Of a DNA stretch of 64,000 nt, positions 3,894-5,769 are shown in pieces (position 1 is the stretch's first letter; each line of letters starts with the position of its first letter). Origin of the DNA: Candidatus Thermokryptus mobilis (lineage in GTDB: Bacteria; Bacteroidota; Ignavibacteria; Kryptoniales; Kryptoniaceae). The DNA lies in the NCBI RefSeq assembly GCF_900070205.1, contig NZ_FAOO01000003.1, positions 103,170 to 167,169 on the forward strand. The letters run 5' to 3'. The position numbers and the translations under genes are program-made. The notes below the pieces were generated by a model, which saw only the letters and a program-made list of their open reading frames with translations, was not told the origin of the DNA and made no database searches.

Positions 3894-4922
3894 ATGTATA
3901 ACTACAGAAGACAAACAGAGGAAAGCGACAGAGCGGTAAACATAGTGGCGAATTTCTGGTTAAATTCCGAGCCGATATTTTTTGAAATTTTGCGAGGTAA
4001 GGTTGTTTTGCTTCTGTTTTTCAACTATGCAAGCCGCGAATGGGTTGAGCTCAGTAGATATCTAAAGGAATGGGAAAGAAGATATTTTGAAAAGGGACTT
4101 TTTATGTTTGGAGTTCATGTGCCAAAGTTTCCGTTTGAAACTAATGTTGAAAATATAAGTCGTGAAATAAAACGACTTGGGATAAATTTCCCGATCGCCG
4201 TTGACAATGATTGGATTAATTTAAGTAGATATAAAGTTCTTGAACTGCCTACAATTATTCTCATAAATCGCGATGGGTTGATCTCGTATTCGCACATCGG
4301 AACGAGGCGACTTTGGGAGGTTGAGTTCAATATTCAATCGCTCCTTATAAAAGCAGGATATCGTGGTGATTTCCCATTGCCGATTGGCTCAAGACATGAA
4401 TTTGATGAATCGTTTTTTTACAAAGTTATACCTGAAATTTACGCTGGTTACTCTGGTGGCTCGCTCGGGAATCCTGAAGGTTTTGCTTCTGAATCAGTCA
4501 TAAAATATGAAGACCCCGAGATTTACATCAACGGTAAATTTTATCTATCGGGCGAGTGGTATAACGGGAAACACTTTTTCAAGCATCAACCGGCTGAGGC
4601 ATCGCTTGGAGTTATCATATTGCCTTACATTGGGACAAATGTTGGGATGGTCGCTGAATCAACAAATGGCGAAGAAATAAATTTAATCGTAACGCAAGAT
4701 GGCGAACCGTTGAGTGATGAAAATCGTGGGGAGGATGTTTTTGTTGAGTGTGGTCAAAGTTATATTCGCATTTGTGAGCCGAGGTATTATGAAATAGTCA
4801 ATAATTTTGACTACGGGGAGCACATTTTAAAATTGTTTGTCATATCCGAGGGCTTCGCAATTTATAAGTTTTCAATATCAGCATTTAGAACAAACCGTGA
4901 ACCTGTGGGATATGGCGGATAG
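3894..4922 (+). CDS. DipZ-like thioredoxin-fold protein lacking the CxxC cysteines
   Basis: About 342 residues from ATG 3894; an in-frame TTG at 3855 would add 13. The N-terminal half follows the thioredoxin-like domain of DipZ/TlpA-type proteins: VVLLLFFNYASREW, YLKEWERRY, GVHVPKFPFE, LGINFPIAVDND, and cis-Pro strand LELPTIILINRDG. Where relatives have a WTYSCxNC site this protein has FNYASREW (SREW, residues about 47-50), so both redox cysteines are gone. The C-terminal half resembles the DipZ C-terminal beta-sandwich (IPEIYAGY, FYLSGEWYNG, CEPRYYEIVN). No clear signal peptide. Thiol oxidoreductase activity is therefore unlikely; a binding role is inferred. Confidence 0.7.
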   Translation: MYNYRRQTEESDRAVNIVANFWLNSEPIFFEILRGKVVLLLFFNYASREWVELSRYLKEWERRYFEKGLFMFGVHVPKFPFETNVENISREIKRLGINFPIAVDNDWINLSRYKVLELPTIILINRDGLISYSHIGTRRLWEVEFNIQSLLIKAGYRGDFPLPIGSRHEFDESFFYKVIPEIYAGYSGGSLGNPEGFASESVIKYEDPEIYINGKFYLSGEWYNGKHFFKHQPAEASLGVIILPYIGTNVGMVAESTNGEEINLIVTQDGEPLSDENRGEDVFVECGQSYIRICEPRYYEIVNNFDYGEHILKLFVISEGFAIYKFSISAFRTNREPVGYGG

Positions 4923-5409
4923 GATAAAAAAGTCAGAGATTAAAAACTTTTTGATTGAATTTTCTCGTAGAAATCAATTTAAACCTATGGTGGTTGAAAA
5001 AGGGGTTGGAAGGAAAAAAGAAAGGATTTTTGAGGATGTTTATTTTCTCGGGTTTCACTGTAGAATGGAGATAGGGAGTGGGGATAAAATTTATTTATTT
5101 AGGGCGACCAAAGATTATCAATATATTGGTGAGATTGTTTTTGAGATAGAAAATCCGAAGGGCATTTTATTTGATAAAGATGGTGAGATTGATAGCGTTA
5201 CTATAACAGCAAGGGGGAGTAGGTTTATAGTTAAAGTTTTTGGTCGTCAAAATGAAGAGATGCGTCGCGAGACGATTGCAAAGGTTGCTTATTTTATATG
5301 GCAGAGGAAGGGCGGGATTGGAAGTCAAGAGCTTGAGAATTGGGCTGAAGCGGAAAGGATTGTTCAGGATTGGGAGAGGATTTTTACCGAGGGCTTTATT
5401 AGGGTTTAA
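4912..5409 (+). CDS. Hypothetical protein with DUF2934-like C-terminus
   Basis: 165 residues from ATG 4912, which overlaps the previous stop by 11 bases, so translation is probably coupled. The N-terminal two thirds are unrecognised: charged, beta-rich, with no signal peptide or membrane segment. The last 45 residues (ETIAKVAYFIWQRKGG...ENWAEAERIV) resemble the short DUF2934 motif of unknown function, with its conserved AY.IW, G and DW/NW-AE positions. A longer reading from 4837 exists, but its first 25 residues run inside the previous gene and are rejected. Function unknown. Confidence 0.65.
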   Translation: MADRIKKSEIKNFLIEFSRRNQFKPMVVEKGVGRKKERIFEDVYFLGFHCRMEIGSGDKIYLFRATKDYQYIGEIVFEIENPKGILFDKDGEIDSVTITARGSRFIVKVFGRQNEEMRRETIAKVAYFIWQRKGGIGSQELENWAEAERIVQDWERIFTEGFIRV

Positions 5410-5410
5410 T

Positions 5411-5439
5411 TTGACATTGACAAATTAATTTATTATATT
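5411..5439 (+). promoter_or_regulatory. Promoter of the cold-shock gene
   Basis: TTGACA (5411-5416), exactly 17 bases, TATATT (5434-5439). A second TTGACA lies at 5417-5422. Predicted start near 5446, giving a leader of roughly 120 bases before the cold-shock ATG at 5566. Confidence 0.7.
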
Positions 5440-5454
5440 GAACCTAACTTTTTG

Positions 5455-5533
5455 CGCTCAGGAACAAGTGAAAATAGCGATAGCAACCACCCAAGTTGAA
5501 TTGGTTCCTGGGCGTTTTAAGGGGTCGGTTGCT
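5455..5533 (+). promoter_or_regulatory. Structured leader RNA with interleaved stems (possible pseudoknot) upstream of csp
   Basis: Two long complementary pairs interleave. Stem 1 pairs 5455-5465 (CGCTCAGGAAC) with 5504-5514 (GTTCCTGGGCG): eleven pairs with one G-U. Stem 2 pairs 5482-5488 (AGCAACC) with 5527-5533 (GGTTGCT), and can extend by CCC 5490-5492 with GGG 5522-5524 across a small internal loop. The order stem1-5', stem2-5', stem1-3', stem2-3' is that of an H-type pseudoknot. It ends about 15 bases before the strong ribosome binding site AAGGAGGT (about 5549-5556). Pairing is read directly; a regulatory role is inferred. Confidence 0.6.
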
Positions 5534-5565
5534 TGAGCAGTTAAACTTAAGGAGGTAGTAGTAAG

Positions 5566-5769
5566 ATGTCACGCGGTAAGGTGAAATGGTTCAACAACAA
5601 GAAGGGCTACGGATTTATCGAGGCAGAGGATGGACGTGAGGTTTTCGTCCATTACTCCGAGATCAAATCCGATAAGCGCTTCAAAACCCTGGAAGAGGGT
5701 TCAGTTGTGGAATTTGAGATTGTTGATGGACCTAAAGGACCCAAAGCAGTTAATGTCGTTGTCGTGTGA
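5566..5769 (+). CDS. Cold-shock domain protein (Csp family)
   Basis: 67-residue OB-fold single-stranded nucleic-acid binder. RNP1 is KGYGFIEAE and RNP2 is VFVHYSEI, preceded by the [11 protein letters not shown] start typical of CspA-type proteins. The length is standard. Such proteins melt RNA structure and act as RNA chaperones. It has its own promoter, a long structured leader, an unusually good ribosome binding site and a strong terminator, so it is probably a monocistronic, highly expressed gene. Its codon use is richer in C/G-ending codons than its neighbours, also consistent with high expression. Confidence 0.97.

Follow-up and report, generated by a model that had tools for sequence, protein, structure and literature searches.

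A probable two-helix pseudoknot in the leader of the cold-shock gene of Candidatus Thermokryptus mobilis and its relatives

The cold-shock gene considered here lies in a 64,000-nucleotide stretch of the Candidatus Thermokryptus mobilis genome, referred to below as the window. The gene, csp, encodes a 67-aa protein with a clear cold-shock domain (Pfam CSD, 4.6e-28), in keeping with the earlier note, which had placed a structured leader upstream of a cold-shock gene. A search of the window's own genome with this protein gave no other match at E <= 0.001. A close relative, L009 (94% protein identity), assigns the window to Candidatus Kryptonia, a lineage that has been reported from high-temperature geothermal springs only (PMC4737851). 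Upstream of csp is an open reading frame (4837-5409) with a C-terminal match to DUF2934 (2.9e-10), the end of which lies near the csp promoter. The promoter is of the sigma70 type, and its position places the predicted transcription start at about 5446-5447. Centred on its -35 box is a near-perfect 11-nt inverted repeat, TTAATTTGACA/TGACAAATTAA (5406-5428), whose symmetry is weaker in congeners; it is possibly an operator and possibly a product of chance. The features of the leader are as follows.

5411-5439, forward strand: sigma70-type promoter TTGACA-17-TATATT, 11 of 12 consensus positions (-35 box TTGACA 5411-5416, spacer 17 nt, -10 box TATATT 5434-5439)
5455-5465, forward strand: stem 1, 5' arm CGCUCAGGAAC, pairs kept in 7 of 7 genus members
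5466-5481, forward strand: loop 1, with AAAUAGCGA invariant in the genus
5482-5492, forward strand: stem 2, 5' arm AGCAACCACCC
5493-5503, forward strand: loop 2, A/U-rich (75% A+U in the genus)
5504-5514, forward strand: stem 1, 3' arm GUUCCUGGGCG, pairs kept in the genus
5515-5521, forward strand: loop 3, 7 nt in the window
5522-5533, forward strand: stem 2, 3' arm GGGUCGGUUGCU, with C5526 bulged
5534-5550, forward strand: unpaired linker, with a UGAGCnGyURA-like stretch common to family f2 and L093
5551-5555, forward strand: Shine-Dalgarno (SD) sequence GGAGG, outside the knot
5566-5769, forward strand: csp, 67-aa cold-shock protein, ATG at 5566

Stem 1 is formed by CGCTCAGGAAC (5455-5465) with GTTCCTGGGCG (5504-5514), giving 11 bp, one U-G among them, and could be extended by one further G-U pair (5454-5515). 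Stem 2 begins with 7 bp between AGCAACC (5482-5488) and GGTTGCT (5527-5533), and continues with A5489-T5525 across the bulged C5526, followed by CCC (5490-5492) with GGG (5522-5524). The earlier note had described an eleven-base stem 1 interleaved with a seven-plus-three-base stem 2, located between promoter and ribosome-binding site. All of this was recovered: the arms follow one another as 5' arm of stem 1, 5' arm of stem 2, 3' arm of stem 1 and 3' arm of stem 2, with the TTGACA-17-TATATT promoter on the 5' side and GGAGG on the 3' side.

The ordinary nested minimum free energy of the leader is not unusual (z = +0.42), because nested folding cannot represent a knot. A purpose-written scanner was used instead, which finds the best interleaved helix pair by stacking energies and takes dinucleotide shuffles as its control. 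The best interleaved pair of the leader reaches -38.0 kcal/mol of stacking energy (z = -4.8), and none of 100 dinucleotide shuffles was as good. Among 984 control tiles (130 nt, from the window only, both strands), none scored at or below -30, so that no interleaved helix pair in the 64 kb is stronger than that of the csp leader. The claim that such complementarity is unlikely to arise by chance is thus supported, and the csp leader almost certainly forms a real structured RNA.

The genus set comprised the window and six congeners (L003-L008). The promoter boxes TTGACA and TATATT are invariant across the seven members, and both helices are kept in the six congeners, with 97% of cells paired, a figure that drops to 48% or less for slid partners; in some congeners stem 2 is an uninterrupted helix of 11-14 bp. 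Most changes within the genus affect one side of a pair (G-C/G-U, A-U/G-U); stem 1 shows a single G-C/G-U/A-U series and stem 2 a single double change, and covariation within the genus alone (7 leaders) did not rise above shuffle controls. The congeners also bear on the idea of a transcription attenuator in the csp leader, which UUUU directly after stem 1 in the window might suggest; they carry GCGUAA at this place instead of a U run, and no terminator-like site was found in the leader, leaving an attenuator very improbable. An upstream open reading frame or leader peptide was considered and rejected, as by eye no frame is kept across 5527-5566, where congeners have insertions of 2 or 3 bases. 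Between the SD sequence and the ATG, TAGTAGTAA (5556-5564) is invariant in all seven genus members, and the SD-to-ATG spacing is 10 nt in the genus (7/7) vs 4-6 nt in families f2 and f7.

For a wider comparison, csp genes were taken from other genomes of the class and their leaders scanned without Kryptonia sequence; the MAFFT alignments used for covariation were built without structure. In nine leaders of f2, a second family of the same order, 11 of 20 pairs have changed on both sides. The cells changed on both sides number 22 vs 9.6 in shuffles (0 of 500 reach the count), and slid controls give at most 3 pairs. When f1, f2 and f9 are pooled, stem 2 has changes on both sides in 7 of its 9 pairs (20 cells, 0 of 500 shuffles). 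In a trio of f7 leaders (L107, L115 and L180), stem 2 has 18 bp with 9 double changes and is 96% paired vs at most 40% when slid, with stem 1 constant. Three f2 leaders (L098, L103 and L179) have, by eye, an extra hairpin in loop 3, between the 3' arms of the two stems, and keep both stems. The earlier note had tied its pseudoknot to the preservation of pairs by compensatory changes in homologous leaders; such changes were found in f2, in f1, f2 and f9 combined, and in f7, the genus alone being undecided. As far as the aligned sequences go, both helices and their interleaving are evolutionarily preserved.

The two interleaved inverted repeats sit downstream of a promoter, as would DNA operators bound by a transcription factor. 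However, the compensatory changes are accompanied by a bias of G-U over A-C in helix cells (52 vs 11), indicating that it is the RNA of one strand, the csp sense (+) strand, whose pairing is under selection. The arms, moreover, have entirely different sequences between families. These observations largely refute the operator explanation, which we consider to have only a minimal chance of being correct. Short stretches outside the arms are shared more widely: loop 1 ends in GGC-RAAA-GC in f2 and f9 (L093) vs AGCGARAGC in Kryptonia, and a GAGCnGyURA-like stretch in the linker is common to Kryptonia, f2 and L093.

Among 194 leaders, the top scanner scores belong to Kryptonia, f2 and f7, with L093 (f9) next at a lower score. 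De novo scanning recovered the knot from csp leaders in four families of a single class, including leaders that have no stem sequence in common (e.g., L097, L099, L101, L106, L115 and L192). A covariance model built from stem 2 and its flanks matched 21 of 391 class genomes, once per genome, and 20 of these matches were at a csp leader (7/7 Kryptonia, 12/13 f2 and one f9). The remaining match, in a genome of family f15 (G344), is weak and inside an ABC-transporter-like coding region, and is a false positive; in the window, the csp leader was the sole match. Since training of the model included most of the matched sequences or close relatives of them, the independent matches are the hairpin-bearing f2 leaders (G007, G017 and G018). 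L103 and L179 are not part of the model, yet it matches them at 1.3e-8 and 9.5e-10. The model no longer recognizes the f7 members, which are too diverged; these came from the scanner alone. The knot is missing from one of the 13 f2 genomes (L104) and from many f7 genomes. No convincing knot was seen in about 40 csp leaders from a wider phylum sample (the same class and other Bacteroidota classes) or in about 75 csp leaders from other phyla. Borderline interleaved pairs in these samples, at L040, L036, L240 and L247, are differently built. Judged from sequence, the knot is tied exclusively to csp and, in the samples searched, restricted to one bacterial class.

Other csp leaders of these families have features of their own. 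A second csp in f2 (L153-L157 and L177) has a different conserved leader, with a CUGGCGCGACGGCUCGGGUACGCAUUU-like stretch before GAAAGGA, which is perhaps another csp leader RNA. In L183 and L186 (f7, genus g72), csp is directly preceded by a 16-bp stem that encloses a loop; an A/U-rich helix that may interleave with it would reach the SD sequence, making these leaders a candidate for real SD masking.

The anatomy of the knot was summarized from 23 leaders. Stem 1 has 5-13 bp (median 12) and stem 2 has 6-20 bp; loop 1 is 3-16 nt, loop 2 is 9-26 nt, and stem 2 ends 7-22 nt from the SD sequence. Loop 3 is 0-12 nt (median 4) and in most leaders 0-5 nt, the longer values being mostly cases in which stem 2 is only partly called or a hairpin is inserted; in congeners with a full stem 2 it is 3-4 nt. 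The earlier note had called the structure H-type. The topology holds, as seen in the order of the arms and the compensatory changes in both helices, whereas the classical coaxial geometry probably does not: a loop 3 of 0-5 nt facing a stem 1 of 5-13 bp makes the textbook H-type stack unlikely. We infer that the helices, instead of stacking, are arranged next to each other or that each partly unwinds the other. By a rough estimate, all of the loop lengths would allow a side-by-side arrangement in which loop 3 connects the helices at one end and loop 1 at the other. The short loop 3 could also mean that the two stems coexist incompletely.

Taken further, this strain would suit a bistable thermoswitch, in which stems 1 and 2 are sterically incompatible, one forming in the hot and one in the cold, with the transition uncovering or concealing the translation start. 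Two conformers are also described for E. coli cspA, with a pseudoknot holding the cold one (PMC4496569). However, the arms of the Kryptonia-type knot never have nucleotides in common, unlike those of usual switches, the side-by-side packing just described would satisfy all loop lengths by rough estimate, and the predicted accessibility of the SD sequence barely differs between the states. A bistable switch is an unlikely explanation.

The predicted SD accessibility is in fact much alike with and without the knot in the 23 leaders, and masking of the SD sequence by stem 2 or by the nested ensemble showed no consistent effect among them. A simple SD-hiding thermometer is therefore unlikely, and, with no consistent gain or loss of SD accessibility from the knot, the route by which it would control translation is one that we infer. 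Two further pairings were considered and rejected: that of the 5' arm of stem 2 with the SD sequence is possible in G005 only and is not conserved, and loop 1 could form a third helix with GAGCUGCUGAC in f2 but not in Kryptonia.

An SD sequence predicted to be free in both models is what would be expected of a passive 5'-end stabilizer or spacer, guarding the mRNA from decay and keeping the SD region open without sensing anything. The predicted transcription start lies at most about 10 nt from stem 1 in the window and in L107 and L115, which speaks for such a role. A simple hairpin would suffice for this purpose, however, and the two conserved interleaved helices, together with the conserved letters of loop 1, suggest more; in addition, the g41 leader L192 has its stem 1 far from the apparent promoter. 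We regard a purely passive role as rather unlikely.

Autoregulation by Csp receives support from the occurrence of the element upstream of csp only, from an A+U content of 68-87% in loop 2 of the three main families (f1, f2 and f7), and from E. coli cspA, which is known for Csp feedback on its own leader (PMC4496569). Csp would bind the A/U-rich loop 2 or melt the knot, so that its own mRNA is shut off or stabilized. Against this stand the sequence of loop 2, which is not conserved between families, and the weak specificity of Csp binding, and binding of Csp to this leader is purely putative. Autoregulation in this form is a tentative proposal.

The reading that best accommodates these results is that of a conserved cis-acting csp leader RNA, a two-helix pseudoknot in the 5' UTR whose 3' limit lies about 7-22 nt short of the SD sequence, and we consider it probable. 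That the knot controls csp post-transcriptionally is very likely, presumably at the level of translation or mRNA lifetime. That it senses temperature, Csp or both is a reasonable possibility, somewhat short of an even chance; that it is purely an element of 5' stability or ribosome loading, without sensing, is a possibility to be held tentatively. In the mechanism that we propose, the knot would stay folded on the nascent mRNA near its 5' end, and the ribosome-binding stretch beside it would be kept single-stranded. The knot would protect the 5' end from decay and adjust ribosome loading, and Csp, as an RNA-melting protein, or a shift in temperature may loosen the strained knot and feed back on csp expression. 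Loosening by Csp or temperature is the most attractive version by analogy, because csp leaders elsewhere act so. We offer tentatively, as less likely than not, the picture of a new csp-leader RNA family spread over several families of one class, with a near-zero loop 3 and side-by-side helices, a strained spring opened by Csp or temperature. If true, it would apply in hot-spring thermophiles too, for which "cold shock" has to have another meaning.

No known RNA family had been recognized in the earlier note, and Rfam 15 agrees: positions 5447-5565 gave no gathering-level match, and the only matches in the window were two tRNAs. Seven leader loci compared with Rfam at E <= 1 gave no leader match beyond coding-driven cspA scores and chance-level matches well under gathering. 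For the cspA thermoregulator (RF01766, gathering threshold 78 bits), there was no match to the window at gathering and none to L002 at E <= 1; the best relative, L094, scored 28 bits from its coding part alone, with the leader skipped, and was rejected as a cspA thermoregulator. A literature search, with most subscription journals outside its reach, turned up no description of the Kryptonia-type knot.

In E. coli cspA, a pseudoknot maintains the cold conformer and is undone upon binding of CspA to the cold box (PMC4496569), and the likeness to the Kryptonia knot lies in a csp 5' leader with strong RNA structure and a reported pseudoknot. The E. coli element (a 428-nt model), however, spans the coding region and rearranges globally, whereas the Kryptonia knot is compact, at about 80 nt, and has no sequence or model match to RF01766. 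The Bacillota csp thermoswitches, in the cspB and cspC leaders, are likewise structured and are thought to be temperature-responsive, but are described as alternative hairpins, which sets them apart. Those sampled here (among L033-L087) have no comparable interleaved pair, leaving aside weak cases with a different spacing (L040, for example). Among ribosomal-protein genes, the S15 operator is a pseudoknot that adjoins the ribosome-binding site and serves autogenous control, and the operator knots of S4 and S15 overlap the start codon or SD sequence and trap the ribosome. The S4 alpha-operon (PMC7858274) is similar to the csp leader in having a pseudoknot by the ribosome-binding site, there for autogenous control. 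Unlike these operator knots, the Kryptonia-type knot ends 7-22 nt before the SD sequence.

We class the csp knot as a new family of RNA belonging to a kind already known, that of structured csp leaders, and unusual for its short loop 3. Structured cold-shock leaders have, to our knowledge, been described chiefly in E. coli and Bacillota; Kryptonia and its relatives, on the Bacteroidota side, would add a third and apparently separate solution. At about 80 nt the pseudoknot is compact, its loop geometry is unusual and its covariation strong. Its architecture is clear enough for testing, and it opens a route to asking what a csp gene senses when the only reported habitat of the organism is high-temperature springs (PMC4737851).
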